Of a DNA stretch of 58,357 nucleotides, positions 29,757-57,772 are shown piece by piece (position 1 is the stretch's first letter; every line of letters begins with the position of its first letter). The notes below the pieces were generated by a model that worked only from the letters and a program-made list of their open reading frames with translations, was not told the DNA's origin and made no database searches. The position numbers and the translations under genes were made by a program. Source of the stretch: a virus. The DNA is taken from the IMG/VR virus record IMGVR_UViG_3300023176_003965, positions 1 to 58,357 of that record. One strand, written 5' to 3'.

Positions 29757-29758
29757 TC

Positions 29759-29840: not shown

Positions 29841-29841
29841 C

Positions 29842-29870: not shown

Positions 29871-29884
29871 TGTCTCAACCAGAC

Positions 29885-29991
29885 GGGACTGTAGTTTAAT
29901 TGGTAGAGATCTGGCGTCGGCAACCCTACCTACGTGATAAAATTACTTTGTGAACCAAGGTAGATGCGGAGTTCGAATCCCGTCAGTCCCA
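29885..29991 (+). tRNA. Aberrant tRNA-like gene (107 nt), isotype uncertain
   Basis: The ends are good: GGGACTG (29885-29891) pairs with CAGTCCC (29984-29990), discriminator A; D-loop AATTGGTAG and T-loop TTCGAAT are normal. But the middle is about 34 nt too long and the T-stem has a bulged A. A possible anticodon arm is TTACTTT-GTGAACC-AAGGTAG (29943-29963), giving GAA (Phe); an alternative outer stem CTACCT/AGGTAG would include a 26-nt loop. It could be a tRNA with an insertion, a pseudogene or a tRNA mimic. Confidence 0.4.
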
Positions 29992-29993
29992 TT

Positions 29994-30015
29994 CCTCAAC
30001 AACGCTAAGTTGAGG
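29994..30015 (+). other. Hairpin after the tRNA-like gene
   Basis: CCTCAAC (29994-30000) pairs with GTTGAGG (30009-30015) over 8 nt. No T-tract. It may protect or define the 3' end of the transcript. Confidence 0.5.
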
Positions 30016-30043
30016 AGGTATGCATAATCTAGAAGTAACATCT

Positions 30044-30069
30044 GAAGTCAGTAGCGAGACTTCTTTTTT
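30044..30069 (+). terminator. Terminator directly before tRNA-Leu
   Basis: GAAGTC (30044-30049) pairs with GACTTC (30058-30063), followed by TTTTTT (30064-30069). The T-run ends one base before tRNA-Leu begins. Confidence 0.7.
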
Positions 30070-30154
30070 GGGAGTGTGGTGGAATCGGTAGACACACCAG
30101 ACTTAAAATCTGTTGACCATTACGGTCGTGCGAGTTCAAGTCTCGCCACTCCTA
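30070..30154 (+). tRNA. tRNA-Leu (anticodon UAA)
   Basis: Acceptor GGGAGTG pairs with CACTCCT, discriminator A; D-stem GTG/CAC; anticodon loop CTTAAAA (TAA) on stem CAGA/TCTG; variable arm TTGACCATTACGGTCGT; T-arm GCGAG-TTCAAGT-CTCGC. It reads UUA, an abundant codon in AT-rich genes. Transcription must pass the terminator just upstream or start elsewhere. Confidence 0.9.
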
Positions 30155-30161
30155 CTAAATA
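30155..30161 (+). promoter_or_regulatory. Late-type promoter box CTAAATA
   Basis: CTAAATA follows the last base of tRNA-Leu and lies 21 bp before the gene at 30183. Confidence 0.5.
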
Positions 30162-45892: not shown

Positions 45893-46090
45893 ATGTCTGA
45901 AGGATTTACTACCGGAAAGTGGGAGTACGATACTCTCTATGCTGCTGTTCCTTTGATGGGAAGCAAATCTAAACTTGTGATTATTCACAAGGGTCAGCAA
46001 CTCAAAGTGTGTAGGAATGAGCAATCTGCCCGAAACTTTATTGAGAAACATAGAAAGGGTAAATCAGTGGGTAAATTGCCTCTCAATTAA
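45893..46090 (+). CDS. Hypothetical basic protein (65 aa)
   Basis: Starts 3 bp after the helicase stop; co-transcribed. MSEGFTTGKWEYDTLYAAVP and a KVCRNEQSARNFIEKHRKGK helix, ending KLPLN. The TAA stop is the first part of copy 1 of the 39-bp element. Confidence 0.65.
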   Translation: MSEGFTTGKWEYDTLYAAVPLMGSKSKLVIIHKGQQLKVCRNEQSARNFIEKHRKGKSVGKLPLN

Positions 46091-46125
46091 AGTTACTCAC
46101 CTCCACATTGTCCTTATAGTGTAAG
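46087..46125 (+). promoter_or_regulatory. 39-bp conserved promoter-like element, copy 1
   Basis: TTAAAGTTACTCACCTCC then ACATTGTCCT then TATAGTGTAAG. Contains the upstream TAA stop; TATAGT is a -10-like box; the next ATG is 10 bp downstream. Confidence 0.8.
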
Positions 46126-46135
46126 CATCAAACTA

Positions 46136-46273
46136 ATGAACGATTTCTTTGAAAAAGATCTTCCTGGTGAGATCCTTGACCTGACTGATGAAACAATCAA
46201 TCAACTTCTCGATGAAGAAGAACCCAAAAAGTTCAACTTCGATGAGTATCTTTCTGCAAACTACGACTACTGA
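46136..46273 (+). CDS. Small acidic protein (45 aa)
   Basis: ATG 46136, stop TGA 46271-46273. MNDFFEKDLPGEILDLTDET then an acidic DEEEPKKF and SANYDY end. No ribosome binding site, as for most genes behind the 39-bp element. Function unknown. Confidence 0.55.
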   Translation: MNDFFEKDLPGEILDLTDETINQLLDEEEPKKFNFDEYLSANYDY

Positions 46274-46279
46274 TTTCTA

Positions 46280-46489
46280 ATGTATTTTCACGACATTCTC
46301 CGCCAAATGGAAGACCTTCGCAAACAATGGAAGGCACAAGATTTCCGATACACAAAAGAGCAGAAAGAGCAGTATGAAATGCTTCTTGCACTTCGACGTG
46401 CTCGTGTAGCACAATTTTATGAAGAAGGTCGTGTTGCTGTATCAAAAGCAAAAACTACTAAGAAAGTTGTTGTTGAAGAGGAGGACTGA
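46280..46489 (+). CDS. Small helical protein (69 aa)
   Basis: A charged helix (LRQMEDLRKQWKAQDFRYTK...LLALRRARVAQFYEEG) with a basic then acidic tail. Six bp after the preceding gene, in the same unit. A GC-rich hairpin follows. Confidence 0.6.
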   Translation: MYFHDILRQMEDLRKQWKAQDFRYTKEQKEQYEMLLALRRARVAQFYEEGRVAVSKAKTTKKVVVEEED

Positions 46490-46508
46490 ACCACTTCAAT
46501 AACTGTCA

Positions 46509-46536
46509 CCCTATCCCTTGTTTTCGGGGGGTGGGG
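46509..46536 (+). terminator. Very stable GC-rich hairpin
   Basis: CCCTATCCC (46509-46517) pairs with GGGGTGGGG (46528-46536) allowing G-U pairs. No T-tract. TTGTTT (46518-46523) and TATTGT (46541-46546) are spaced 17 bp apart and could form a weak promoter. Confidence 0.55.
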
Positions 46537-46547
46537 ATGTTATTGTA

Positions 46548-46554
46548 ATAAATA
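46548..46554 (+). promoter_or_regulatory. Late promoter box ATAAATA
   Basis: ATAAATA lies 24 bp before the internal-head-protein candidate at 46579, a late-gene context. Confidence 0.7.
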
Positions 46555-46578
46555 ATAAGAAGATTTACTTTACCACTG

Positions 46579-47256
46579 ATGAAGACCTTTAGGGAATTTT
46601 GCAAAGAAGCATACGATGCTGATTTAATGAGATCCAGCACGATCCGTAAAGGTGGTGAAGGTGGAAGAATTGGTAGAGAAAGAAGACAAGATCCTCAACA
46701 AACTCGCAGAGTTAAGGCAGTTGGTGGTGGTAAAACTGAACCAGTAGTTCAGAAACCAAGAAAAGACATTGGTAAAGATAGACCAAAAGCAAAAGTAACG
46801 GCACGTCAGGAACAACCACAGCAGGAAAGAGGTTCTGCCGATGTTAGAGCAAAAGCAGCAGCGGCAGCAAAAGAAGAGAGAAGAAAAGCAGCATTAGCAA
46901 GACGTGCTGCTAAATCTGGCGGTGGAGAAGCAAAGAAATCCACTACATCTTCCCAAGATCTTAGTAAGCAAGCAGATAAACTTCTCACTAAAAAGAAAGA
47001 AGAACCCAAAAAGACTGAATCTAAACCACGTCGTCAGTGGAGAACTGCTGAAGGCGGTAGAATGACTCGCCAAGAGAGAGATCAGGCAAGAAATAGAGAG
47101 AAGACAGCAGCAGCACAAAAGACCAAGAAGAGTGCTACTGAAATCCTTGCAAAGATGCGTAGTGAGTATGAAAAAGGTGGTGGAAAGTGGAACTCTAAAG
47201 TTGCAGTTCAGATGAGAGCAAAAGCAAAGAAAGCAGCACAAGCACTTGGAAATTGA
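46579..47256 (+). CDS. Candidate internal head protein with T4-type capsid-targeting sequence (225 aa)
   Basis: MKTFREFCKEAYDAD matches the capsid targeting sequence of T4 internal proteins (MKTYQEFIAEA), which packages them into the prohead and is cleaved by the prohead protease after a Glu. The rest is extremely basic and Ala/Gln/Lys/Arg rich (KAAAAAKEERRKAALARRAA, KSKPRRQW-like parts), as expected for a DNA-binding protein injected with the genome. It is the only late-box gene inside an early-looking region. Role as injected host-takeover or DNA-condensing protein is inferred. Confidence 0.7.
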   Translation: MKTFREFCKEAYDADLMRSSTIRKGGEGGRIGRERRQDPQQTRRVKAVGGGKTEPVVQKPRKDIGKDRPKAKVTARQEQPQQERGSADVRAKAAAAAKEERRKAALARRAAKSGGGEAKKSTTSSQDLSKQADKLLTKKKEEPKKTESKPRRQWRTAEGGRMTRQERDQARNREKTAAAQKTKKSATEILAKMRSEYEKGGGKWNSKVAVQMRAKAKKAAQALGN

Positions 47257-47262
47257 CCTGAA

Positions 47263-47301
47263 TTAAAGTTACTCACCTCCACATTGTCCTTATAGTGTAA
47301 G
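47263..47301 (+). promoter_or_regulatory. 39-bp element, copy 2
   Basis: Same consensus with ACATTGTCCT and TATAGTGTAAG; 14 bp before ATG 47316. Lies 6 bp after the previous stop. Confidence 0.8.
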
Positions 47302-47315
47302 GACACAACCACACC

Positions 47316-47852
47316 ATGACCTATTCTCTCCAACTTCCCCCCACAATTAAGAAGGGATGGGAGAACTCTCCTCTGAAAAATCTTCCTAACTGTACTCCAC
47401 AGTTCAAAGGTAATCTTGGCACAGTTTTTATTCGCCAATACTTTGAGCAGAAAGGTGTATCTACTGAGAAGATTAGTGATGAGGGTGATTTGATTGTTGA
47501 TGGTCGTAAGAGTGAAGTAAAAACTGCTCTGGTTTCATATAAATTCAATAAGAGTGGTTATGTGAATGAAACTCTCTGGTGGAATCAAATCCGACCTCTG
47601 CAATCTGGTTGGGAATTGCTTCATCTTGTAGCAGTTTATCCTGATAAAGTTTGTATCTGGGAATTTGACCGTGATAATGGTCTTATGCTTGCAGAATCTA
47701 CTGGTGGATGTGAGCACACTGGGCAAGGTGATGAGAAAGGTCTTCTTGCTGTTCAGATTGATAAGAAAAAAACTAAAACTAACTTTGACCTTCTGGGTAA
47801 GTATGGTAAACTTATTGCAGAGATTGATGTAAATGATATTCAGATTTCCTGA
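47316..47852 (+). CDS. PD-(D/E)XK endonuclease-like protein (178 aa)
   Basis: Residues 55-70 (DEGDLIVDGRKSEVKT) give the nuclease signature Asp58 ... Glu67-x-Lys69. The following WWNQIRPLQSGWELLHLVAVYPD (about 91-113) is of type II restriction-enzyme style. It overlaps the adenine methyltransferase gene by ATGA at 47852. A restriction-like or host-DNA-degrading endonuclease is inferred; specificity cannot be read. Confidence 0.65.
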   Translation: MTYSLQLPPTIKKGWENSPLKNLPNCTPQFKGNLGTVFIRQYFEQKGVSTEKISDEGDLIVDGRKSEVKTALVSYKFNKSGYVNETLWWNQIRPLQSGWELLHLVAVYPDKVCIWEFDRDNGLMLAESTGGCEHTGQGDEKGLLAVQIDKKKTKTNFDLLGKYGKLIAEIDVNDIQIS

Positions 47853-48661
47853 TGAAACAAAACAAGAGAGTAACAGGTAAAGAACAGTATTACACTCCAG
47901 AGCAAACAGCAATAGAGTGCATCAATCTCCTCGATGAAGTTCATCGGGGAGATACTTATCTTGAACCTGCTGGTGGAACTGGTGCATTTATTGACCCTTT
48001 AATTGAACTGAATAGAAATGTAGTGTCTTATGACATTGAACCAAAGCATAGTTCAGTTCAACGAACAGAAGATTTTCTTCTGGAAGACTTATCACATCTC
48101 TCTAATGTAATTACTATCAGCAACCCACCATTTGGTAGAGCAAATAAACTTTGTATCCCATTTTTTAACAAGTGTGCTGAAGTATCAACTCACATTGGGT
48201 TTCTAATACCAAAAAGTTGGAGAAAGTGGTCGGTTATCAATCGTTTAGACAATAGATTCCATCTGGTTTCTGATACTGAACTGACTGTGGATTTTATACA
48301 TCCAAGTCAAGAGAAAAAGAGTAAAGGAAAACTTAACACAATTTTTCAAGTATGGGAAAAGCGTGATGAGTTGAGAGAAACTATCTCTGTGGTGGATAGG
48401 AATTACATTACCAAAACAAATCCTGATGATGCTGATGTTTCACTCACAGTATTTGGTAGAGGTTGTGGTAAGTTAAAGGAAGAGTTTCCAAGAGTTCCTA
48501 ACACAACTCAAATGTTCTTGAAGTGTAATGAACCTTGGGTAGTTGATGCACTTAAAACTGTTGATTTCTCACGGTTCTACAATAATGTAGCATTTGTTGA
48601 GGCACTATCAATTAAGGAAATCAATTTCTTACTCAATGAATACAAAGATTCCTCCAATTAA
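47852..48661 (+). CDS. DNA adenine methyltransferase, gamma-type N6A (269 aa)
   Basis: Motifs: QYYTP (12-16, motif X), EPAGGTGAF (38-46, AdoMet-binding motif I), Asp61 after the next strand (motif II), NPPFG (91-95, catalytic motif IV). The order X-I-IV is that of gamma-class N6-adenine methyltransferases. The C-terminal half would recognise DNA. It probably protects sites cut by the overlapping nuclease. TAA stop is in copy 3 of the 39-bp element. Confidence 0.85.
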   Translation: MKQNKRVTGKEQYYTPEQTAIECINLLDEVHRGDTYLEPAGGTGAFIDPLIELNRNVVSYDIEPKHSSVQRTEDFLLEDLSHLSNVITISNPPFGRANKLCIPFFNKCAEVSTHIGFLIPKSWRKWSVINRLDNRFHLVSDTELTVDFIHPSQEKKSKGKLNTIFQVWEKRDELRETISVVDRNYITKTNPDDADVSLTVFGRGCGKLKEEFPRVPNTTQMFLKCNEPWVVDALKTVDFSRFYNNVAFVEALSIKEINFLLNEYKDSSN

Positions 48662-48697
48662 AGTTACTCACCTCTAGATTGTCCCTATAGTGTGAAG
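48658..48697 (+). promoter_or_regulatory. 39-bp element, copy 3 (variant)
   Basis: Contains CACCTCT and TATAGT, then GTGAAG instead of GTAAG. The next gene starts 86 bp downstream, the longest leader of the family, with a hairpin at 48721-48780. Confidence 0.75.
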
Positions 48698-48720
48698 GGG
48701 AGACCCGACACAACCACCAC

Positions 48721-48780
48721 GAGAGGCAAAACAATAAGAGGGATCGACAAACAGATCTCCGCCTCTCATACTATTTTTTT
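48721..48780 (+). promoter_or_regulatory. Structured leader with hairpin and T-tract
   Basis: GAGAGGC (48721-48727) pairs with GCCTCTC (48761-48767); inside, GATC/GATC (48742-48745 with 48755-48758) pair. TTTTTTT (48774-48780) precedes ATG 48784. This resembles an attenuator or leader terminator for the following gene. Confidence 0.5.
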
Positions 48781-48783
48781 ATC

Positions 48784-49194
48784 ATGGCAACTCGCTCACG
48801 AATCGGTATCGAACTTCAAGATGGATCTATTCTCTCTTCTTATCATCATTGGGATGGATATCCTTCTTGGTTGGGTCGGATTCTCAAAACGCACTACAAT
48901 ACGAAGGCGAAAGTTTCCGAACTGATTGACGGTGGCGATATGTCTTCCTGCTGGACTGAAAAGTCTTGGGGAAAACTTCGCCCAGACCTTAGTTATGGTC
49001 CCGAATACTACTCTCAGCGTGGTGAAAATTGTCCTCCTCGTCTTGATAAAGACATGGAAGAGTTCTTCTCTATGGGTGAAGAATACTCTTACATTTTCCG
49101 CAATGGTAACTGGTTTGCCTACGATATGCACGAGTTTGAAGACAACGTAGCACCAGAACCTGTTGAGATTCCTTCTGGAGCACTTGCCTGCTAA
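48784..49194 (+). CDS. Conserved phage protein of the MATRSRIGIE family (136 aa)
   Basis: MATRSRIGIELQDGSILSSY, HHWDGYPSWLGRIL and a GPEYYSQRGENCPPRL block are the hallmarks of a widely spread phage family of unknown function. ATG after the T-run; upstream hairpin leader. The TAA stop is in copy 4 of the 39-bp element. Confidence 0.8.
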   Translation: MATRSRIGIELQDGSILSSYHHWDGYPSWLGRILKTHYNTKAKVSELIDGGDMSSCWTEKSWGKLRPDLSYGPEYYSQRGENCPPRLDKDMEEFFSMGEEYSYIFRNGNWFAYDMHEFEDNVAPEPVEIPSGALAC

Positions 49195-49231
49195 AAAGTT
49201 ATTCACCTCCAGATTGTCCCTTTAGTGTAAG
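49192..49231 (+). promoter_or_regulatory. 39-bp element, copy 4
   Basis: TAAAAAGTTATTCACCTCC, then AGATTGTCCC, then TTTAGTGTAAG; contains the upstream TAA. The next ATG is 10 bp downstream. Confidence 0.75.
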
Positions 49232-49241
49232 CACAAACCAA

Positions 49242-49532
49242 ATGATTATTTCACGCGAAAAACTTGAAATCAAACGCAGCGAATGGGAGTGTTACATTGA
49301 TACTCCCGATGTTGTGATTGAGGAAGTTAATGAACTTTTCCTTGAGATTCTAAACACTACTCACTCTCCTGTTCTAGCACAAAAGCGCACTTATGATGCG
49401 ATGTTTGATTATAGGAAGTATGGATTTATGGACTCTGAGTGTAATCAAACAGTAACAGATGTAATCAATAAGTATTACAATTCCAACATTGACCGTTGGG
49501 CATTTCTCTCCTACAATAAAACTTCAGCATAA
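49242..49532 (+). CDS. Hypothetical protein (96 aa)
   Basis: A helical protein (LEIKRSEWECYIDTPDVVIE, then MFDYRKYGFMDSECNQTV). Starts 10 bp after copy 4 with no Shine-Dalgarno. No family recognised. Confidence 0.6.
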   Translation: MIISREKLEIKRSEWECYIDTPDVVIEEVNELFLEILNTTHSPVLAQKRTYDAMFDYRKYGFMDSECNQTVTDVINKYYNSNIDRWAFLSYNKTSA

Positions 49533-49540
49533 TCAACATC

Positions 49541-49909
49541 ATGGCAAAAGTAGTTTACAACAATCGCGTCGGTGCTTTCAGTCTTTCTGATGCAGCACTT
49601 GAGAAAATGGTAGAACTTGGTTCTCAGTATGTAAAAGAGAATCCTGAGTATAATGCAACGAATGAGTTTGGTGATGGAACTGCTATGAAATGGTGGGAAG
49701 GTAAGTACATTTTTGAATGGGATTGCCCTCGCCACGATGAGATCCTAGTGCAAGTTGTGACTGAACTTGGAGAACTTGCAAATGGTGCTACAGCAACACT
49801 TCAAACCATAGATGTAGTGTCTAAGTACATTATTATGGGGATCCAGGGGTGGGAGCAAGTAGTTCAACCACAAGACATTCAGTGGGTTGAAGTATCAAAC
49901 CGTCTGTGA
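49541..49909 (+). CDS. Conserved cyanophage protein (122 aa)
   Basis: Starts 8 bp after the previous stop. GAFSLSDAALEKMVELGSQY, CPRHDEILVQVVTELGELAN and IMGIQGWEQVVQPQDIQWVE resemble a widespread small cyanophage/cyanobacterial family. No catalytic motif is clear. Confidence 0.65.
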   Translation: MAKVVYNNRVGAFSLSDAALEKMVELGSQYVKENPEYNATNEFGDGTAMKWWEGKYIFEWDCPRHDEILVQVVTELGELANGATATLQTIDVVSKYIIMGIQGWEQVVQPQDIQWVEVSNRL

Positions 49910-49911
49910 AA

Positions 49912-49949
49912 TAAAGTTACTCACCTTCAGATTGTCTCTAGAGTGTAAG
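49912..49949 (+). promoter_or_regulatory. 39-bp element, copy 5 (variant)
   Basis: TAAAGTTACTCACCTTC, AGATTGTCTC, TAGAGTGTAAG: the -10-like box is TAGAGT. The next ATG is 10 bp downstream. Confidence 0.7.
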
Positions 49950-49959
49950 GACTAAACCA

Positions 49960-50127
49960 ATGATTACAACTAAGGCACAAATGCTCAAGGTGATTGCTAC
50001 ATGCGCTCAACCGCATGTGCTCACTCGTGAAGAAAAGTTTCAAGTATTTTGTAGAGTATGTGATAACATGCTCAAAGAGGGTAGAATCACCAAAGCAAAC
50101 CACACTCGCTGGACTAATGTTTTCTAA
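49960..50127 (+). CDS. Small basic protein (55 aa)
   Basis: ATG 49960, TAA 50125-50127, overlapping the next ATG. MITTKAQMLKVIATCAQPHV, then VFCRVCDNMLKEGRITKANH. Two Cys near each other (C31, C34) could bind metal only with partners not visible. Helix-turn-helix-like order (EEKFQVFCRVCDNMLKEGRI) is possible. No family named. Confidence 0.6.
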   Translation: MITTKAQMLKVIATCAQPHVLTREEKFQVFCRVCDNMLKEGRITKANHTRWTNVF

Positions 50128-50648
50128 TGATTGACATTTCACGCTTTAATCTTGAAGAGTTTTTCGGTTGTGTAAATGCAACTAACACAACGCAGATGAA
50201 ATCTAATGCCTTCAAGACAATTCGCACTTGGTTGCAAGAAAAATCATTCGCAAAATGGAGTGATGGACAACTCCAATACGTTGGAGATTACAAAGACGGT
50301 GTAGACTTTACATCAGAAGATAATGTGAACTATGAGATGAAAGGTAAACTCAAAATGTTCAATAAGAACGGGTCAACTTCATCTATTGTTCTTAAAAACT
50401 TCCAATCAGACAACAAAGTAATCGAGAAAACATTTGATTACATGTTGTTAGTGGACACTGGATCTATGGCGATCGGTGTTACTGACTGGGATACTGTGGA
50501 AAAACGTATCTACTACACTCCCAAATCTCCGTGTGCTAAAGTAAAGTTTCTGCCTGGTGATTATACTATTCTTGCGAAGGACATTGTGCCTTGTGAGAAG
50601 ACTATCACCTCAGAAGAAATCCTTGAAAACCTTCAATCTATCCTGTGA
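50127..50648 (+). CDS. PD-(D/E)XK-like protein (173 aa)
   Basis: A nuclease-type pattern: DYKDGVDFTSEDNVNYEMKG gives Asp, then Glu-x-Lys (YEMKG), followed by FDYMLLVDTGSMAIGVTDWD. This D...ExK order is that of PD-(D/E)XK folds; no experimental counterpart is known to me. Coupled to the previous gene by TAATG. A third protein of this fold in the window. Confidence 0.55.
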   Translation: MIDISRFNLEEFFGCVNATNTTQMKSNAFKTIRTWLQEKSFAKWSDGQLQYVGDYKDGVDFTSEDNVNYEMKGKLKMFNKNGSTSSIVLKNFQSDNKVIEKTFDYMLLVDTGSMAIGVTDWDTVEKRIYYTPKSPCAKVKFLPGDYTILAKDIVPCEKTITSEEILENLQSIL

Positions 50649-50651
50649 ATT

Positions 50652-50828
50652 ATGAACCGAATTAGTGACCTTGCCGAAGAATATGAACTGACTTGTGATT
50701 ATGTAATCGAAGAGTTTTTCGTTGATGAGGATATAGAAATTCCTACACTTTATGTGTCGATGAAAGATAACATCATCATTTTCTACGATGCCGCTGATGA
50801 GAATGATGAGGTTTATTCCCTGAATTAA
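50652..50828 (+). CDS. Small acidic protein (58 aa)
   Basis: ATG 50652, TAA 50826-50828 inside copy 6. Starts with MNRISDLAEEYELTCDYVIE, then strands DIEIPTLYVSMKDNIIIFY. Acidic. No family recognised. Confidence 0.6.
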   Translation: MNRISDLAEEYELTCDYVIEEFFVDEDIEIPTLYVSMKDNIIIFYDAADENDEVYSLN

Positions 50829-50863
50829 AGTTACTCACCTCCAGATTGTCCCTACAGTGTAAG
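50825..50863 (+). promoter_or_regulatory. 39-bp element, copy 6
   Basis: Consensus with TACAGT as -10-like box; contains the upstream TAA. The next ATG is 16 bp downstream. Confidence 0.8.
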
Positions 50864-50879
50864 CACACGATCGAACCAA

Positions 50880-51047
50880 ATGATCTTAACTCACAAAGTT
50901 ATTACTCTCACTGAAGGTTCAGATGATCCTTTTACCATCGGGATTTATGATACTGAAGAGATTGCACAAAGGGTCGCTGATTCATACAATCTGATGTATG
51001 ATGCTTGGAACATTTTGGCGACTGCTCACGTTATTGAGAACAACTGA
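50880..51047 (+). CDS. Small protein (55 aa)
   Basis: ATG 50880, TGA 51045-51047; next gene follows without a gap. MILTHKVITLTEGSDDPFTI and a helical AQRVADSYNLMYDAWNIL. No family recognised. Confidence 0.6.
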   Translation: MILTHKVITLTEGSDDPFTIGIYDTEEIAQRVADSYNLMYDAWNILATAHVIENN

Positions 51048-51236
51048 ATGAAAACAACCACTGCAACTTATTCCATTCAAGTTACACAACCTGGAGGGCA
51101 TTTATCATTCTTAAAAGATATGCCAACCCGTCCTAAAACGCATAAAGGGATTAAAGCACAAAACAACAAATTGTGTAAATGGGTAGAAAAACAATACCCT
51201 AACTTTACTTCATACGACATTTCTCTTCTCGACTGA
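51048..51236 (+). CDS. Hypothetical basic protein (62 aa)
   Basis: MKTTTATYSIQVTQPGGHLS then KTHKGIKAQNNKLCKWVEKQ. Begins directly after the previous stop and overlaps the next ATG at 51236. Unknown function. Confidence 0.55.
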   Translation: MKTTTATYSIQVTQPGGHLSFLKDMPTRPKTHKGIKAQNNKLCKWVEKQYPNFTSYDISLLD

Positions 51237-51517
51237 TGAACTACACTCTCAAACAACTCCAAGAACGACTCAACAAACTGATCGAACAACAGGGTGAAGA
51301 TGCACATTGTGCCGCATGGATTTATACTAAGGAAGATTGTCATTTGAAGGATGAAAATGGTGAGATTGATTATGATAATGTTGTAGAAGATGCTGACGTT
51401 ATTGAACGTATCTTTGATGATGTTGGCAACATTGATTACATCTATCAGGTGATTCAGGAGTGCGTAGATGAAGTAACTGAAGAGCAACTAATGTTACAAC
51501 AGCAGGAGTTGGTCTGA
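51236..51517 (+). CDS. Hypothetical acidic protein (93 aa)
   Basis: A helical start (LKQLQERLNKLIEQQGEDAH) then an acidic domain with three Cys and a long terminal helix ending EEQLMLQQQELV. One base overlaps the previous stop. No domain named. Confidence 0.6.
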   Translation: MNYTLKQLQERLNKLIEQQGEDAHCAAWIYTKEDCHLKDENGEIDYDNVVEDADVIERIFDDVGNIDYIYQVIQECVDEVTEEQLMLQQQELV

Positions 51518-51519
51518 TT

Positions 51520-51852
51520 ATGTTATTCACTTCAGGTAAATCTTCCAACTCACACCTCACTCATAAGGTGTTTGAGTTCTTCACATCAAACTATGAAATC
51601 TCCAGTGATGTTGAGGTTTATCATACCAACCTAAGTGATGATAATGCTTTTGGATTCACTGAGGTGAACGGAGAGGAGCAATTCATCCAGATTCACAACA
51701 AACTGAGTGAAAAAGACTATGTTATCACTTTGCTGCATGAATTGGTGCATGTGACGCAAAACGAAGCAGGTGTGATTGATGATGAGGAAAGAGAGAATCA
51801 GGCATACAAATTAGAGAAGGTTTTGTATAACCAGTTTGCTAATCTTGTCTAA
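51520..51852 (+). CDS. HExxH zinc-metallopeptidase-like protein (110 aa)
   Basis: LLHELVHVTQ carries HELVH (residues 73-77) and is followed by EERENQAYKLE, as in ImmA/SprT-type zincin folds (HExxH ... E). Short but complete. It might cleave a host regulator or repressor (inference), or be an inactive binding protein. Last gene of a four-gene unit. Confidence 0.6.
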   Translation: MLFTSGKSSNSHLTHKVFEFFTSNYEISSDVEVYHTNLSDDNAFGFTEVNGEEQFIQIHNKLSEKDYVITLLHELVHVTQNEAGVIDDEERENQAYKLEKVLYNQFANLV

Positions 51853-51891
51853 TTAAAGTTACTCACCTCTAGATTGTCCCTATAGTGTAAG
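51853..51891 (+). promoter_or_regulatory. 39-bp element, copy 7
   Basis: Consensus with CACCTCT and TATAGT. Directly follows the previous stop; the next ATG is 10 bp downstream. Confidence 0.8.
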
Positions 51892-51901
51892 CAACCAACC
51901 G

Positions 51902-52096
51902 ATGATGAACATTTTTTCGATTGATGAACAACTGATAATGATGATTGACCGACTGAATACTGCAATCAATGTTTGCTATGAGGCACCTGATAATGAAGAT
52001 CAGGGTTATCCTTATGCTACAGGATATTCACGGTCTGCAATGATTGATGTAGCAAACGATTTGAGTAAAATTGTCGAAGAAATTCGACGCAATTAA
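51902..52096 (+). CDS. Hypothetical protein (64 aa)
   Basis: A helical small protein (FSIDEQLIMMIDRLNTAINV, then YSRSAMIDVANDLSKIVEEI). Stop TAA is in copy 8. No Shine-Dalgarno. Function unknown. Confidence 0.6.
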   Translation: MMNIFSIDEQLIMMIDRLNTAINVCYEAPDNEDQGYPYATGYSRSAMIDVANDLSKIVEEIRRN

Positions 52097-52131
52097 AGTT
52101 ACTCACCTTCAGATTGTCCCTATAGTGTAAG
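52093..52131 (+). promoter_or_regulatory. 39-bp element, copy 8
   Basis: Consensus with CACCTTC and TATAGT; contains the upstream TAA. The next ATG is 12 bp downstream. Confidence 0.8.
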
Positions 52132-52143
52132 CACAGAACCATT

Positions 52144-52332
52144 ATGAAACCAGAAGACATTTTCATCACAAACGACACTGCTAAGAATGATCCTATCATT
52201 CAGAAAGTGATGCAAGATTACATCAACGATTTGATGGCGCAGAAACAACGACGGGACAGAATCCGTGCTGGACTTGAACCTGCTCCAGCATACGATTCTT
52301 ACGGCACTTGGAACATTTCAGATCGCGATTGA
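52144..52332 (+). CDS. Hypothetical protein (62 aa)
   Basis: MKPEDIFITNDTAKNDPIIQ followed by a charged helix and a Pro/Tyr-rich end. First gene of a four-gene unit after copy 8. Confidence 0.55.
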   Translation: MKPEDIFITNDTAKNDPIIQKVMQDYINDLMAQKQRRDRIRAGLEPAPAYDSYGTWNISDRD

Positions 52333-52346
52333 GGAGTAAAACTAAC

Positions 52347-52502
52347 ATGAACCAACTCGAAATGCTGACTGCTCGTGAACAATTAATGGAGGACATTGAT
52401 TGTATCATCACTGAATACTTTCAGGGCATCGATGATGCTGAACTGAATCAAGTTACAGAGATTCTCTGTGATGCTGTCTGCAAAAACTTTCCCGCAAACT
52501 GA
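52347..52502 (+). CDS. Small acidic protein (51 aa)
   Basis: ATG 52347 is preceded by GAGGAG (52331-52336), a good ribosome binding site, so a longer frame from 52308 is rejected. Helical and acidic with three Cys. One base overlaps the next gene. Confidence 0.6.
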   Translation: MNQLEMLTAREQLMEDIDCIITEYFQGIDDAELNQVTEILCDAVCKNFPAN

Positions 52503-52708
52503 TGCAATTCCAAATCACTGAAATTGAGTTTGACCTGGATTGTGATGCCGCTGAAGAAGAATTAACCGAACAAGAACGTGTTGATTTGTATGAAGATTAC
52601 ATCGGCACATTCTGGGAGGCAGATGATGCTGACGATCTTGTAGATGAGATCACAAGTGCATCAGGTTGGTGCATCAATTCCATTGACTACCGTATCATTC
52701 TGAAATGA
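52502..52708 (+). CDS. Hypothetical acidic protein (68 aa)
   Basis: A very acidic protein (CDAAEEELTEQERVDLYEDY) with flanking strands FQITEIEFDLD and CINSIDYRIILK; a small alpha/beta fold is likely. The acidity would suit a DNA-mimic or inhibitor, but this is speculation. Overlaps the next start. Confidence 0.6.
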   Translation: MQFQITEIEFDLDCDAAEEELTEQERVDLYEDYIGTFWEADDADDLVDEITSASGWCINSIDYRIILK

Positions 52709-52911
52709 CTATGTTGACCACTTCTAAACTTGACCAACTCAAACTCAACTACGCAGAGATGATTGTTGAGGGTATGGATATGGATAGTCTCATCACATTT
52801 GCTGTTGAGAGTATTGAACAGAACATCAAAGATTGGGATGAAGATGATGTTAAGTCTGACATCCTTGATTGTTATGGTGAAGAAACCCTTGAAGGATTGA
52901 TGCCTGATTAA
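52705..52911 (+). CDS. Hypothetical acidic protein (68 aa)
   Basis: MTMLTTSKLDQLKLNYAEMI and an acidic helical rest (IEQNIKDWDEDDVKSDILD). Coupled to the previous gene by ATGA. TAA stop is inside copy 9. Confidence 0.6.
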   Translation: MTMLTTSKLDQLKLNYAEMIVEGMDMDSLITFAVESIEQNIKDWDEDDVKSDILDCYGEETLEGLMPD

Positions 52912-52946
52912 AGTTACTCACCTCCAGATTGTCCCTACAGTGTAAG
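52908..52946 (+). promoter_or_regulatory. 39-bp element, copy 9
   Basis: Consensus with TACAGT; contains the upstream TAA. The next ATG is 21 bp downstream, after an ACCAAACCAAAC-type leader. Confidence 0.8.
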
Positions 52947-52967
52947 CATCAAACCAAACCAAACAAA

Positions 52968-53648
52968 ATGGATCGCCAACAAGTCATCGCTAAAATCAAG
53001 TCGATGCTCAAACTTCAAGAGAGCACAGATTTTGATGGTGAAGCATCTGCTGCTGCGGCAATGATTGATAAACTGTGTGCAAAGCACGGTATCACTTTGC
53101 AGGAAGCAAAAGAGGTTCTTGCTGTTGATGAACAGTTCGCATCTTTCAAAAAGATGGATGTTGCTTTCACTCAGATTGTCAACGCTGTTGCTAAGTTTTA
53201 CGATGCAAAAGCATACGTCAAAACTGACATCAATGGTGCTAAAACTATTCAAGTGATTGGTAGTGAAGCGCAACAGATTCAGGTAAATCTTTACAGTGAG
53301 TTCCTGGTTGATGTTATGAACCGTGAGGCAGATAAGGCATACTCTGCTGAGAAGATTATTGCTCAACTGACTGGTGCTAACCTGAAGAGATCTTTTAAGA
53401 TTAACTTCAAGAAAGCATTTGCAATTCAGGTTGCTGATCGTCTCCGTGAGATGAAAAAAGAGGAGAATCGTGTTCACGAAGATAAGCAAGCAGTTGTTAC
53501 TGCACTGAGCAAAATGCGCTTCAATTCTAGCACTAAGTTCAGAGGTGCTTCTGGTGCTGGTGCTACTGCTGGCGCAGATGTGGGCAGCAATGTATCACTG
53601 CATAGGCAAACTGGTGGTAGAACTGCTAAACAACTTGCTGCTGCCTAA
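52968..53648 (+). CDS. DUF2786 protein (226 aa)
   Basis: The first 45 residues (MDRQQVIAKIKSMLKLQEST, DFDGEASAAAAMIDKLCAKH) match the DUF2786 domain, found in phages and bacteria. The rest is helical and basic, ending in a Gly/Ala/Thr-rich segment. ATG 52968 is chosen over an upstream in-frame start at 52929 that lies in the element. Role unknown; a terminator follows. Confidence 0.8.
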   Translation: MDRQQVIAKIKSMLKLQESTDFDGEASAAAAMIDKLCAKHGITLQEAKEVLAVDEQFASFKKMDVAFTQIVNAVAKFYDAKAYVKTDINGAKTIQVIGSEAQQIQVNLYSEFLVDVMNREADKAYSAEKIIAQLTGANLKRSFKINFKKAFAIQVADRLREMKKEENRVHEDKQAVVTALSKMRFNSSTKFRGASGAGATAGADVGSNVSLHRQTGGRTAKQLAAA

Positions 53649-53684
53649 ATAAAACATCTGTTAGGTGTGGTAACTCAACAGATT

Positions 53685-53711
53685 AAAAAGGATCCTTCGG
53701 GATCCTTTTTT
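53685..53711 (+). terminator. Strong (bidirectional-type) terminator
   Basis: AAAAAGGATCC (53685-53695) pairs with GGATCCTTTTT (53700-53710) over a TTCG loop, with T-run to 53711. Ends the DUF2786 gene before the HNH endonuclease. Confidence 0.95.
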
Positions 53712-53723
53712 AGTGTATAATAG

Positions 53724-53731
53724 TATAAATA
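53724..53731 (+). promoter_or_regulatory. Late promoter box TATAAATA
   Basis: TATAAATA lies 24 bp before the HNH gene at 53756. A TATAAT at 53716-53721 lies close by but no -35 box is visible. Confidence 0.55.
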
Positions 53732-53755
53732 ATAATACCACACCTAAACAGAATA

Positions 53756-54271
53756 ATGAAAGAATTATCTTTACCTTCTCAGGAGTATCTAAACGAACTT
53801 TTTACATACAATCCAGAGACAGGCACACTAACTAGAAAGAAAACTGTTAGAAGCAACGCTAAAGAAGGGCAAATAATAAAATCAAAAACTGGTGACGGTT
53901 ATTATAGAGTATCTGTAGATAATGTATCGTATAAAATACATAGATTGATTTGGAAAATGTATTATGGTGAAGACCCAGCAGATTTACAAATAGACCACAT
54001 TAACAGGGATAGAACTGATAATAGAATAATCAATCTGAGAGTTTCTACATCCCAAGAACAAAAGTTTAATCAATCCATAAGACTTGATAATAACAGTGGA
54101 TTTAAGGGAGTTTATAGACCGAAGGGCAGAAGAAAGTGGACTTCCAGAATAAAAAAGGACGGCAAATCTATACATCTTGGGACTTTCGACACACCAGAAG
54201 AAGCAAGTTTTGCCTATCAATCTAAGGCATTAGAGTTATTCGGTGAGTTTTACTCTGCGGGGTCTGATTGA
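53756..54271 (+). CDS. HNH homing endonuclease with AP2 domain (171 aa)
   Basis: LQIDHINRDRTDNRIINLR (about residues 78-96) is the HNH core (DH...N...N), and SGFKGVYRPKGRRKWTSRI ... GTFDTPEEASFAYQSKA is an AP2 DNA-binding domain. Typical free-standing homing endonuclease of T4-like phages. It has its own promoter and terminator context and ends at a 67-bp repeat shared with 55610. Not needed for growth; a mobile gene. Confidence 0.92.
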   Translation: MKELSLPSQEYLNELFTYNPETGTLTRKKTVRSNAKEGQIIKSKTGDGYYRVSVDNVSYKIHRLIWKMYYGEDPADLQIDHINRDRTDNRIINLRVSTSQEQKFNQSIRLDNNSGFKGVYRPKGRRKWTSRIKKDGKSIHLGTFDTPEEASFAYQSKALELFGEFYSAGSD

Positions 54272-54280
54272 TACAAACTG

Positions 54281-54309
54281 TGGAGGTGAATTAAAGTTAC
54301 TCACCTCCA
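54281..54309 (+). other. Perfect hairpin covering the element's CACCTCC
   Basis: TGGAGGTGA (54281-54289) pairs exactly with TCACCTCCA (54301-54309) over an 11-nt loop. The 3' arm belongs to the 39-bp element. The same hairpin is at 55628-55656. Confidence 0.85.
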
Positions 54310-54329
54310 GATTGTCCCTATAGTGTAAG
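54291..54329 (+). promoter_or_regulatory. 39-bp element, copy 10
   Basis: Exact consensus with TATAGT. The next ATG is 14 bp downstream. Part of the 67-bp repeat. Confidence 0.85.
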
Positions 54330-54343
54330 CAACGGATTCATCC

Positions 54344-54508
54344 ATGAAATCTTATCCACTCGGTATCGACAACCCCATCAAAGTTAAGGCAGTTTGGGGT
54401 TCACATAAGTGGGCACTTTACTGGAAAGATGATTTCACTAAGATCGCAACTTTCCCTAATGAGTTCACTGCAATGCAAGCACGTCAATCTATCATCGAAT
54501 CTCTCTGA
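54344..54508 (+). CDS. Small protein (54 aa)
   Basis: ATG 54344, TGA 54506-54508. MKSYPLGIDNPIKVKAVWGS, then a HKWALYWKDDFTKIATFPNE strand and a helix. A small alpha/beta fold; no family recognised. Confidence 0.6.
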   Translation: MKSYPLGIDNPIKVKAVWGSHKWALYWKDDFTKIATFPNEFTAMQARQSIIESL

Positions 54509-54510
54509 TT

Positions 54511-54663
54511 ATGATGAAACTTAATCTAACAGACAGACAATTAGAGATAATTCTTGATGCTGTTGAGGATTATGCTGTTCTAGTTGATGAGGATCTCGCT
54601 GACGATTGTAGTGAGATTCTTGACATTATCGAAGCACACGTTTCTAACAAACAAGACCAATGA
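54511..54663 (+). CDS. Small acidic protein (50 aa)
   Basis: ATG 54511, TGA 54661-54663 overlapping the next start. Helical and acidic (LTDRQLEIILDAVEDYAVLV). No family recognised. Confidence 0.6.
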   Translation: MMKLNLTDRQLEIILDAVEDYAVLVDEDLADDCSEILDIIEAHVSNKQDQ

Positions 54664-54890
54664 ACATTTACATCGCTGAGAATCAAGGTTGTGCCTATTC
54701 CATTTGTAGTGAAGGGGCACTTTATTACACTCCTTTGTATCAAGATGGAACGATGAATCTTGAGGATTGGAGTGAAGTTGATCTGATGAGTTTAATGGGT
54801 GAAGAAGAGAATCTTCGCCTGGAAGTTGATGAGATTCACGAGAAACTTATCGCAATGAGTAAGGCAATCGGAGAGTATTTCCAGCAATAA
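54660..54890 (+). CDS. Hypothetical acidic protein (76 aa)
   Basis: MNIYIAENQGCAYSICSEGA followed by strands and an acidic terminal helix (EENLRLEVDEIHEKLIAMSK). Coupled by ATGA. TAA stop is inside copy 11. Confidence 0.65.
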   Translation: MNIYIAENQGCAYSICSEGALYYTPLYQDGTMNLEDWSEVDLMSLMGEEENLRLEVDEIHEKLIAMSKAIGEYFQQ

Positions 54891-54926
54891 AAGTTACTCA
54901 CCTTGAGATTGTCCCTATAGTGTAAG
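54888..54926 (+). promoter_or_regulatory. 39-bp element, copy 11
   Basis: TAAAAGTTACTCACCTTG, AGATTGTCCC, TATAGTGTAAG; contains the upstream TAA. The next ATG is 28 bp downstream. Confidence 0.78.
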
Positions 54927-54954
54927 CAACCAATCAAACCAAAAATCTTTCTTT

Positions 54955-55188
54955 ATGTCAACTCCAATTTTCTCTATCTACAATAACATCGAAGCATGGG
55001 ATGACATCATGGGGCAAATGATTGCCTTTGTGAATGATACCAATGCCGACATCGATATGGCATACGATTGGGTATGTGAAATGATGGAAATTGACTCCTT
55101 TGTTGATAATCAAATCGCATGGGATTCTTTCTACAACACTTGGAAATCTTGCGACAATCGTAACTGCATTGAGTACATTGTTGACTGA
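54955..55188 (+). CDS. Hypothetical acidic protein (77 aa)
   Basis: A helical, acidic, Trp-rich protein (AWDDIMGQMIAFVNDTNADI, YDWVCEMMEIDSF). No ribosome binding site. No family recognised. Confidence 0.6.
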   Translation: MSTPIFSIYNNIEAWDDIMGQMIAFVNDTNADIDMAYDWVCEMMEIDSFVDNQIAWDSFYNTWKSCDNRNCIEYIVD

Positions 55189-55219
55189 TTAACATCAAAC
55201 CATCACAATCTCAGATGAA

Positions 55220-55258
55220 TTAAAGTTACTCACCTCCAGATTGTCCCTATAGTGTGAG
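55220..55258 (+). promoter_or_regulatory. 39-bp element, copy 12
   Basis: Consensus with TATAGT then GTGAG instead of GTAAG. The next ATG is 41 bp downstream. Confidence 0.78.
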
Positions 55259-55299
55259 GGACACACTTCACAAGCAAACTTTACATTTTTTCCAAAACA

Positions 55300-55614
55300 A
55301 TGTTCGCACAAACTATCAATTTCGTCGATGATGTTCTTGAGTATGATTATCAAGAACTCGCAAACAATCTGATCACTAATCTTATCACTATCGGAGCAAT
55401 TTGTGCTGTGATTATAGGTTCACTTTACAATCAACTGCGTAAGGTTAAGTTTGCAACACCTTATCAGATTGGGAATCAATTTTATTTCGGTGTGAATCTT
55501 ACACCTTCTGGTGATAATGATGAGCGTTTCGGTATTAGCATCAAAGACTATTATTTGGGTCTTTATGGTAAGCAACTGTGCTGGGGTAAACTTGATGAAA
55601 ATGGTTGCCTCTGA
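55300..55614 (+). CDS. Single-pass membrane protein (104 aa)
   Basis: An acidic N-terminus (residues 1-22), one membrane helix (NLITIGAICAVIIGSLY, about 28-44), then a beta-rich soluble domain with YQIGNQFYFGVNLTPSG. Location in the host membrane is inferred. Its stop is at the start of the second 67-bp repeat. Confidence 0.65.
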   Translation: MFAQTINFVDDVLEYDYQELANNLITNLITIGAICAVIIGSLYNQLRKVKFATPYQIGNQFYFGVNLTPSGDNDERFGISIKDYYLGLYGKQLCWGKLDENGCL

Positions 55615-55676
55615 TTGATACAAACTGTGGAGGTGAATTAAAGTTACTCACCTCCAGATTGTCCCTATAGTGTAAG
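55610..55676 (+). repeat. 67-bp exact repeat, copy B
   Basis: Identical to 54263-54329, including the perfect hairpin (55628-55656). Here no endonuclease gene precedes it. Confidence 0.92.
55638..55676 (+). promoter_or_regulatory. 39-bp element, copy 13
   Basis: Exact consensus with TATAGT within the 67-bp repeat. The next ATG is 23 bp downstream after an ACCAAACCAAACC leader. Confidence 0.85.
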
Positions 55677-55699
55677 GACACAACCAAACCAAACCAATT

Positions 55700-55891
55700 A
55701 TGAAACCATTTCCATACACTGAAGTCAACGCAATCGAGCGTGAAATGTGTGATCTTCGCGATGAAGTCACCCGTCTTCGGATTCAACTTGAGAACGCACA
55801 ATCCTGCCTTAATGCACTACAACGCAAGCGGACTGAGTTAATCAATGATCGTTCTGAAGGCAATCTTTTCGAGCAAATGTTTGGAGTCTGA
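55700..55891 (+). CDS. Small coiled-coil protein (63 aa)
   Basis: Mostly one heptad-repeat helix (EREMCDLRDEVTRLRIQLEN) followed by KRTELINDRSEGNLFEQMFG. Probably a dimer. Function unknown. Confidence 0.6.
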   Translation: MKPFPYTEVNAIEREMCDLRDEVTRLRIQLENAQSCLNALQRKRTELINDRSEGNLFEQMFGV

Positions 55892-55899
55892 TTAACATT

Positions 55900-56088
55900 A
55901 TGATTGCGATTGTAACACCAAAATCTAAGAAAGCACAGAATCGTTTCTGTAACTTAATGGACAAACTTCAGGAATGTTTTGTAGAGCAACATTTAGGAGA
56001 TAAAGTGTTCCTAACCTCTGCGAACAATAAGAATCACTTTTGGGTGAATCTGATTGATGACAATGACTGGGAAATTGAGTTGAATTAA
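55900..56088 (+). CDS. Hypothetical protein (62 aa)
   Basis: MIAIVTPKSKKAQNRFCNLM, then a strand VFLTSANNKNHFWVNLI. Small alpha/beta protein. TAA stop is inside copy 14. Confidence 0.6.
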   Translation: MIAIVTPKSKKAQNRFCNLMDKLQECFVEQHLGDKVFLTSANNKNHFWVNLIDDNDWEIELN

Positions 56089-56123
56089 AGTTACTCACCT
56101 CCAGATTGTCCCTATAGTGTAAG
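56085..56123 (+). promoter_or_regulatory. 39-bp element, copy 14
   Basis: Exact consensus with TATAGT; contains the upstream TAA. The next ATG is 10 bp downstream. Confidence 0.85.
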
Positions 56124-56133
56124 CAACAAACCA

Positions 56134-56472
56134 ATGATGATCACACAAACCAAACCACAATTCCTGACTGAAGCACTCATCGAAGTTCTCAACAATGAGT
56201 GGAAAGTTAATGCTCTTGAGTCCAATCGTTCTGTTTATCATCAACTTGAGATGGAGATTGGTCGCAAATACATTAAAGTTTGGCAGCGACTTGATCGCGA
56301 TGGTGTGAAAGATACCTCTCGCGGTTGCTGGATGTTTGTTGATAAGAACACTGGTGAATGTTACAAACCAAGTTCACATCGTGCTCCTGCAAAAGGTGTC
56401 CGCTATCTTATCACTCAGTTGGTAGATCATCCTCACATTTGTGACCAATACGGCAGTTTTTTATATCTCTGA
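56134..56472 (+). CDS. Hypothetical protein (112 aa)
   Basis: An alpha/beta protein with strands IGRKYIKVWQRLDRDG and GCWMFVDKNTGECYKPSS, resembling a small conserved cyanophage family. Two Cys are not arranged as a metal site. Followed by the HNH gene's own promoter. Confidence 0.65.
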   Translation: MMITQTKPQFLTEALIEVLNNEWKVNALESNRSVYHQLEMEIGRKYIKVWQRLDRDGVKDTSRGCWMFVDKNTGECYKPSSHRAPAKGVRYLITQLVDHPHICDQYGSFLYL

Positions 56473-56479
56473 TTGATAC

Positions 56480-56508
56480 TTGACTTTGGAATCTGTTTAT
56501 GATACATA
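56480..56508 (+). promoter_or_regulatory. Sigma70-like promoter of the second HNH gene
   Basis: TTGACT (56480-56485), 17 bp, TACATA (56503-56508). It starts within a TCTGATTGATAC segment shared with the 67-bp repeats. Confidence 0.55.
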
Positions 56509-56532
56509 GTAGGTGTTACTTCTAAATCTATT

Positions 56533-57039
56533 ATGAAACAGATTCCAAATTGTCCTGAGTATAGTATTACAAAAGACGGTAAAGTTTATTCACATCTTAA
56601 ACCTGGCGGGTATGGAAATGGTAAGGTTTTAGATTATACTTATGCCCGAGAGTTCAAACCACAAATTACTAAAAAAGGTTATTTGAGAGTTCAACTTTAC
56701 TCCAACACATCTAAATGTAAATCGTATTCGGTGCATAGATTAGTCGCACAAACATACATACCCAATCCAAACAATCTACCACAAGTTAATCACATCAATG
56801 AAGATAAAACAGATAACAGAGTAGAAAACTTGGAATGGATTTCAAATAGTGATAACATTCGCTATTCAAAGTGTAAGAATTGGACAATTCAGACACCTAC
56901 GGGCGAAATACTTACAACCGACAATCTACCAGTGTTTTGTGAAGAAAATAACCTCACTTCATCACTTTTAAGAAGAACATTCAGAAAAAAAGATAAAGGA
57001 TGGAAGCATAAAGGTTTCGCCATATTGAGTCTGAATTAA
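56533..57039 (+). CDS. HNH homing endonuclease, NUMOD4 type (168 aa)
   Basis: An N-terminal NUMOD4-like segment (PNCPEYSITKDGKVYSHL) precedes the HNH core HRLVAQTYIPNP ... VNHINEDKTDNRVENLEWIS (about 73-117), as in phage group I-intron-type endonucleases. A C-terminal NUMOD1-like helix follows. Free-standing mobile endonuclease. Its stop TAA is in copy 15. Confidence 0.9.
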   Translation: MKQIPNCPEYSITKDGKVYSHLKPGGYGNGKVLDYTYAREFKPQITKKGYLRVQLYSNTSKCKSYSVHRLVAQTYIPNPNNLPQVNHINEDKTDNRVENLEWISNSDNIRYSKCKNWTIQTPTGEILTTDNLPVFCEENNLTSSLLRRTFRKKDKGWKHKGFAILSLN

Positions 57040-57074
57040 AGTTACTCACCTCCAGATTGTCCCTATAGTGTAAG
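57036..57074 (+). promoter_or_regulatory. 39-bp element, copy 15
   Basis: Exact consensus with TATAGT; contains the HNH stop TAA. The next ATG is 23 bp downstream. Confidence 0.85.
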
Positions 57075-57097
57075 CAACCAACCAAGAGAAACCAATT

Positions 57098-57451
57098 ATG
57101 ACAACAATCACCGAGACCAACCTGTTCGCTGTTGCTGATAACATTGAGCAAGGAATGTCCTTGTTTCGTGCAGGTTTCAAGGCAGAAGTGTACTGGGGTG
57201 ATGTTATCACCGCTCATCACATGAACACCCGTAGTGTGTATCGTCTGAAAGAGAATAGCGATGTCGCTATCACTCACACTGCAACTTATGAGGGTGAGGA
57301 TATTTTCGCGGTATCAATCACTGAGGTTACTGCATACCATACCAATGGGAATGTGTTGTCTTCAACCACTAAAACCTTAGGTGTTTATGATAACTTCAAC
57401 GATGCTTATTACTGTGCAGTTGATGTTAGCAATGGTCTGAAAAAGGACTGA
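57098..57451 (+). CDS. Hypothetical protein (117 aa)
   Basis: A beta-rich domain (VAITHTATYEGEDIFAVSIT) with a helical N-terminus and a TLGVYDNFNDAYYCAVDVSN end. No Shine-Dalgarno; leader is ACCAACCAAGAGAAACC-like. No family recognised. Confidence 0.65.
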   Translation: MTTITETNLFAVADNIEQGMSLFRAGFKAEVYWGDVITAHHMNTRSVYRLKENSDVAITHTATYEGEDIFAVSITEVTAYHTNGNVLSSTTKTLGVYDNFNDAYYCAVDVSNGLKKD

Positions 57452-57452
57452 A

Positions 57453-57491
57453 TTAAAGTTACTCACCTCCAGATTGTCCCTATAGTGTAAG
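57453..57491 (+). promoter_or_regulatory. 39-bp element, copy 16
   Basis: Exact consensus with TATAGT, 1 bp after the previous stop. The next ATG is 15 bp downstream. Confidence 0.85.
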
Positions 57492-57506
57492 CGTTACCAA
57501 TCGACT

Positions 57507-57722
57507 ATGAAAAACCCTGAAATTGATTACAACCAAGTCCGCAAAATGTTCGGAAAGGTTGTAAGTGATGGCACTCACACTTATAACATCTCAGACTATA
57601 AAATGGGATGTGATGCTTATCAACTGTGGTGCAATGATCGCCAACAATTCTTTTACACTTCTTACAATGGTGTTCATCAACTGATGGAAATTGTAGGAGA
57701 TGCTTATCCTGAAGAGGATTGA
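57507..57722 (+). CDS. Hypothetical protein (71 aa)
   Basis: A small alpha/beta protein (QVRKMFGKVVSDGTHTYNIS, then YQLWCNDRQQFFYTSYNGVH). Alone in its transcription unit. No family recognised. Confidence 0.6.
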   Translation: MKNPEIDYNQVRKMFGKVVSDGTHTYNISDYKMGCDAYQLWCNDRQQFFYTSYNGVHQLMEIVGDAYPEED

Positions 57723-57733
57723 TTCCTCTTCAA

Positions 57734-57772
57734 TTAAAGTTACTCACCTCCACATTGTCCCTATAGTGTAAG
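57734..57772 (+). promoter_or_regulatory. 39-bp element, copy 17
   Basis: Consensus with ACATTGTCCC and TATAGT. The next ATG is 22 bp downstream. Last copy in the window. Confidence 0.82.

Follow-up and report, generated by a model that had tools for sequence, protein, structure and literature searches.

A family of predicted pre-late promoter cassettes with a genome-specific box in the small-gene region of T4-like cyanophages

The IMG/VR record IMGVR_UViG_3300023176_003965 is a virus fragment of 58,357 bp (58 kb), analyzed here over its full length and referred to as the window. A uvsW-like helicase and the nucleotide similarity to Synechococcus myoviruses identify it as part of a T4-like cyanophage. 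An element of 39 bp is repeated 17 times among the small genes located 3' of uvsW and, on sequence grounds, these elements are almost certainly promoters. The right half carries a sigma-70 -10 box, whereas the left half is a box that hardly varies inside a genome and differs from one genome to another. The best explanation overall is probably that of activator-type pre-late promoter cassettes, which resemble the T4 middle promoters and the promoter early stem-loops (PeSL) and belong to neither class. The PeSL are reportedly a feature of T4-type phages, in the accounts of Arbiol et al. 2010 and Comeau et al. 2014.

The 17 copies listed in the original prediction are all present on the + strand with 35-39 matches in 39, and two of the starts move by one base (Table 1). 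Over the 58,357 bp of the record, both strands are free of any extra copy with at least 24 matches, in agreement with the original claim, and the number of copies expected in shuffled sequence is 0. The density is 17 copies per 11.7 kb of the window. In all copies the left box spans start+5 to start+16, the -10 box spans start+28 to start+33 and the predicted +1 is placed at start+40. The next start codon lies 8-86 nt from the predicted +1 in 17/17 copies. Upstream, every copy abuts the end of the preceding gene (offset -3 to +32) and nine supply its TAA stop, the same number as originally counted. The statement that the elements stand just upstream of a gene is correct for all 17 copies. The converse does not hold, as the gene starts at 46579 and 53756 are without an element directly in front. 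Positions 54263-54329 and 55610-55676 are identical over 67 bp, which comprise the element and 28 bp, and both can form a GGAGGTGA...TCACCTCC hairpin. Since the identity exceeds the element by 28 bp, element 10 or element 13 probably arose by recent duplication.

Outside the window, the 23-mer core in its exact form is limited to two IMG/VR contigs, which belong to the same species and are 99.3-99.9% identical. Diverged forms are recovered with looser patterns. They occur in about 25 contigs from the environment, where a stretch of 23 kb can hold up to about 20 copies, and in six Synechococcus phages known from culture: S-B43, S-B05, RN05-S, RB11-B, SynMITS9220M01 and S-SM2. The relatives contain 8-20 copies each. 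In the 214-kb genome of S-B43 the copies are confined to the region between uvsW and the baseplate gene gp25, and S-SM2 (12 copies) and SynMITS9220M01 (10 copies) carry them on one strand within 10-16 kb. Confinement to one region is established for these three phages. No repeated cassette is seen in Syn19, S-RIM44 and P-SSM7. A host origin was rejected, since 84,980 prokaryote species genomes gave no exact match to the core GATTGYCNCTATAGTGTAAG. The two same-species contigs, L009 (end near window position 57074) and L010 (end near 55679), stop inside or at an element, a pattern expected of assemblies broken at repeats, and in L009 the final element copy is not to be trusted.

The promoter signs of the right half come from the alignment of 133 copies from 11 genomes. 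The T at -7 is invariant (133/133), position -12 is mostly T and position -11 mostly A (A in 99/133), and the middle positions of the -10 box are partly variable. A purine is placed at the predicted +1 in 127/133 copies, compared with 66/133 at -1 and 46/133 at +2. The pattern is that of a sigma-70 -10 box with a purine start about 7 nt downstream, and these statistics support the original assignment of TATAGT as a -10 box. The -35 is weak, as had been noticed, and the left half is not sigma-70-like. No TTGACA-like -35 or TGn motif is present in the 17 copies and 0/17 elements are included in the sigma-70 scan list. The left boxes are of the GTTACT, ATAGCT, ACTGGG and GGGGGG types, and CCC or CAC precedes the -10. 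Conservation extends past both boxes, as also anticipated. A pre-late timing is likely, and "not late" fits the elements better than "early". The late -10 motif TATAAATA does not occur in the elements, whose -10 boxes are of the TATAGT type, and ATAAATA occurs elsewhere in the window. Such late-type motifs, and not the elements, are found in the structural-gene part of the window. They precede structural genes as well as the two genes without an element, which counts in favor of pre-late promoters.

The left half, from -35 to -24, is TTACTCACCTC in the window, the S-B group and SynMITS9220M01, TTACTCACTTT in L037, TAGCTAACTTTG in G003 and G011, ACTGGGCCC in G002 and G008, and GGGGGGTCG in S-SM2. 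Within genomes its heterozygosity is the lowest (0.075, compared with 0.146 in the middle and 0.275 in the discriminator), and between genomes its difference is the highest (0.474, compared with 0.061 at the -10 edges). The -10 edges and the discriminator follow the opposite pattern. In S-SM2, GGGGGGTCG is exact in 11/11 copies of the fetched 24-kb stretch, where 0.18 are expected, and the -10 varies. At the orthologous junction of the window (52908) and G003 the flanks are 90% and 82% identical and the left box 50%. Copying or gene conversion would homogenize both halves alike. The pattern is therefore most simply explained by a trans-acting factor that reads the left half and differs from lineage to lineage, and it is rather probable that such a lineage-specific factor binds the left box. 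The dedicated factor put forward in the original prediction is strengthened by this pattern. The layout is of the T4 middle type, with a box near -30 replacing the -35 and a -10 at fixed spacing, and it suggests the binding of an activator.

Several points weigh against this interpretation. The copies were gathered by similarity, which flatters their conservation. In a less biased test, the left half of copies picked via the right half is still more constant than the right half of left-picked copies (p = 0.016), with three genomes reversed or noisy. The box is not always changed between lineages, as the type TTACTCAC is common to rather distant phages. Some copies in G003 (L042) and G011 (L051) have TTAGGT at the -10 with the remainder conserved, which, lacking the A at -11, makes a poor sigma-70 -10. 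The genes beside the array or near gp25 contain no DNA-binding family in Pfam or PHROGs and yield no candidate for the factor, so that a regulator adjoining the array was rejected. The MotA and AsiA profiles (PF09114, PF09010) hit T4 and give no hit in S-B43, S-SM2, SynMITS9220M01 and S-B05, and MotCF (PF09158) gives none, in a search without a T4 control. Control of the elements by MotA and AsiA was rejected, both being absent from these carriers.

In the mechanism proposed for the activator-type cassettes, transcription would start 2 nt past the GTAAG end and drive the next one to four small genes. The right half, formed by the -10, the GTAAG discriminator and the purine start, would be the site at which the RNA polymerase of the host, together with the main sigma factor, opens the DNA. 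The left half would be the genome-specific box, bound by a trans-acting factor that may be encoded, carried in the virion or recruited in each lineage. One box common to all copies of a genome would make the region a single regulon, switched on before the late genes. Copying would propagate the cassettes, as would recombination between elements, by which gene modules could be swapped. Tentatively, the region may form a private ORFan regulon of cyanomyoviruses, activated without MotA and AsiA, in which the box was replaced as a whole from lineage to lineage along with the factor reading it and the half contacting the polymerase stayed fixed. If true, the boxes would act as passwords, and the cassettes would function only among factor-sharing phages, channelling gene exchange.

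The repeat-driven shuffling of genes proposed in the original prediction stands in part. Several genes of the window are conserved in G003 up to an element, which is then followed by a different gene. In four close cultured phages, the borders of inserts or replacements fall within 30 bp of an element in 4/14, 5/12, 3/13 and 3/6 cases (expected 1.3, 1.1, 0.9 and 0.4), counts that are not independent as events are shared. These observations indicate that an element can serve as a swap border. On the other hand, distant comparisons give no clear excess of borders at elements. When all junctions are counted, synteny is kept in 3 and broken in 79 with an element, against 15 and 72 without (p = 0.005), a result that leans on the conserved uvsW pair. 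With both partners present, synteny is kept in 3/3 junctions with an element and in 15/16 without. Element-linked synteny breaks in distant relatives were rejected on these grounds.

The elements could be plain early promoters that the sigma-70 polymerase of the host reads without any modification, the remaining sequence being kept only by recent duplication or recombinational homogenization. The good -10 and the purine start fit this explanation, as do the two copies with 28 identical upstream bp, a sign of recent duplication, and the literature, which assigns host-type sigma-70 promoters to the early genes of cyanomyoviruses (PMC2984593). It is unlikely, however, in view of the missing -35 and TGn and the absence of all 17 elements from the sigma-70 scan list. 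Moreover, homogenization should affect both halves, whereas the left one varies less inside a genome, and more from genome to genome, than the right one. PeSL cassettes proper, in which an early promoter is joined to an upstream stem-loop terminator and kept mainly as a recombination point for gene shuffling, would account for the dense and near-identical copies in a hyperplastic region, the swap borders above expectation and the few copies that form a strong hairpin with the upstream flank. Nevertheless, the mean folding energy of 73 copies is -11.5 kcal/mol versus -10.9 with swapped flanks, and a clear folding advantage over swapped flanks is limited to about 8 of the 73 non-redundant flank-element pairs. 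Most copies are without a stem-loop and no forward terminator adjoins the 17. A constant stem-loop or terminator was therefore rejected as a general part of the element and, given also that the border counts are not independent and are not matched by the distant comparisons, this explanation is quite improbable.

Even less credible is that the conserved stretch acts in read-through RNA, where an anti-Shine-Dalgarno sequence (TCACCTCC) or a hairpin would block translation from upstream transcripts. The motif TCACCTCC is present in the window and in the S-B-type box, and in two copies of the window it pairs with an GGAGGTGA located upstream. However, the box types TAGCTAACTTTG, ACTGGGCCC and GGGGGGTCG lack it, and the anti-Shine-Dalgarno role was rejected for this reason. 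No Rfam family matches the element, and the purine peak and the constant T at -7 are signs of a DNA promoter. The RNA role mentioned in the original prediction is thus not borne out, considering the Rfam result and the few pairs that fold clearly better.

Table 1. Elements and associated features of the window.
Feature	Coordinates	Strand	Matches and remarks
Element 1	46087..46125	+	37/39
Element 2	47263..47301	+	37/39
Element 3	48658..48696	+	36/39; predicted leader of 86 nt, the longest
Element 4	49193..49231	+	35/39; -10 TTTAGT; originally placed at 49192
Element 5	49911..49949	+	35/39; -10 TAGAGT; originally placed at 49912
Element 6	50825..50863	+	38/39; -10 TACAGT
Element 7	51853..51891	+	38/39
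Element 8	52093..52131	+	38/39; small hairpin GTCGAA-GAAA-TTCGAC directly 5'
Element 9	52908..52946	+	38/39; orthologous junction in relative G003, with a different left box
Element 10	54291..54329	+	39/39; pairs with upstream GGAGGTGA
Element 11	54888..54926	+	36/39; both flanking genes joined to other genes at an element in G003
Element 12	55220..55258	+	38/39
Element 13	55638..55676	+	39/39; upstream 28 bp as in element 10
Element 14	56085..56123	+	39/39
Element 15	57036..57074	+	39/39
Element 16	57453..57491	+	39/39
Element 17	57734..57772	+	38/39; hairpin GAAGAGGA-TTGAT-TCCTCTTC directly 5', without T tail
uvsW-like DNA helicase gene	44654..45889	+	precedes the element region; adjoins the same region in relatives
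ATAAATA, late-promoter-like motif	46548..46554	+	before gene 46579, no element directly in front
ATAAATA, late-promoter-like motif	53725..53731	+	before HNH endonuclease gene 53756, no element directly in front

The small-gene region 3' of uvsW is the territory of the elements and, in relatives, extends to gp25. It contains two homing-type HNH endonuclease genes, at 53756-54271 and 56533-57039, with HNH_3 and AP2 domains in one and HNH_3 and a weak NUMOD4 in the other. An IrrE-like/M78 metallopeptidase (Pfam DUF6782, Peptidase_M78) is encoded at 51520-51852, and its relatives in S-SCSM1 and in contig G011 stand in gene orders that differ from that of the window. Elsewhere in the window, a tandem 54-bp repeat (DYGSRVAQQVPKVVQPTI) lies within a large tail-region gene (17159-17389), and three tRNA genes (Ile-tat, Tyr-gta and Leu-taa) are placed amid structural genes (29684-30155).

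Other cassette designs occupy the same region in other phages. A second, unrelated class is present in ACG-2014f (L069, 1954-13983, 16 copies) and S-SSM6a (L070, 17570-26426, about 10). This promoter-like class has an inverted repeat near TGTGACAGTT-N4-AAGTGGCACA, followed downstream by a strong -10 (TATACT, TATAAT), and resembles an operator to which a dimeric regulator binds. The uvsW-gp25 stretch of Syn9, examined for this inverted repeat only, has one site. A third form, with GTATTCTATAAGAGTCAAAGGAAC, is found in S-SCSM1 (L011, 29689-36467) and Sf-CH5 (L012, 20516-24230) as 4-5 repeats 5' of small genes, some of which are homologous to genes of the window. In this region, repeated genome-specific promoter cassettes thus seem to be a solution that recurs among phages and not the oddity of one phage.

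How marine cyanophages control their early and middle transcription is unclear according to the literature (PMC2984593), and no control is known for the large blocks of small unknown genes. The predicted promoter family would mark transcription units in these blocks, with start sites predicted to the base, and may explain how foreign genes entering these regions gain expression. Its presence in at least six cultured phages, together with the pointer to a lineage-specific factor, makes both control questions directly testable.

Among the known systems, the T4 middle promoters consist of a MotA box and a sigma-70 -10 (PMC2988021). The elements are similar in having a box around -30 in the place of the -35, paired with a sigma-70 -10. 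They differ in the sequence of the box, which does not conform to (a/t)(a/t)TGCTT, in the absence of MotA and AsiA and in location, the copies being restricted to a single gene region and not placed before replication genes. The T4 early promoters, characterized by an excellent -35, TGn and UP elements, share with the elements the conservation beyond the two hexamers and the service to small genes of unknown role (PMC2988021); the elements have neither the -35 nor TGn. As in the T4-like late promoters (NATAAATA), a short phage-specific motif stands 5' of phage genes. However, the -10 is different, the T4 late promoters depend on gp55 and the late motif of the window serves other genes. The intergenic repeats of halovirus HF2 are promoters by reporter assay, and their extra conserved blocks are thought to be binding sites for viral regulators (PMC8707807). 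The elements are likewise conserved intergenic repeats with extra conserved blocks; the HF2 repeats differ in their archaeal TATA/BRE, fewer copies and good conservation among related viruses.

The PeSL are also short and near-identical promoter cassettes, many per genome, that serve the small genes of a hyperplastic region, and the elements agree with them in these traits and in that some gene swaps end at elements. On the other hand, the elements have no constant stem-loop or terminator, and a genome-specific box takes the place of the sigma-70 hexamer in the -35 region. Membership in the PeSL fails on the feature that names them, because the stem-loop is not general and forward terminators are missing. 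In cyanophage S-PM2, no dense PeSL were found (PMC4503421). The element cassette works like a PeSL in its place and, in part, in its behavior. The finding is more interesting than a repeated early promoter and adds a variant to the known phage promoter cassettes.

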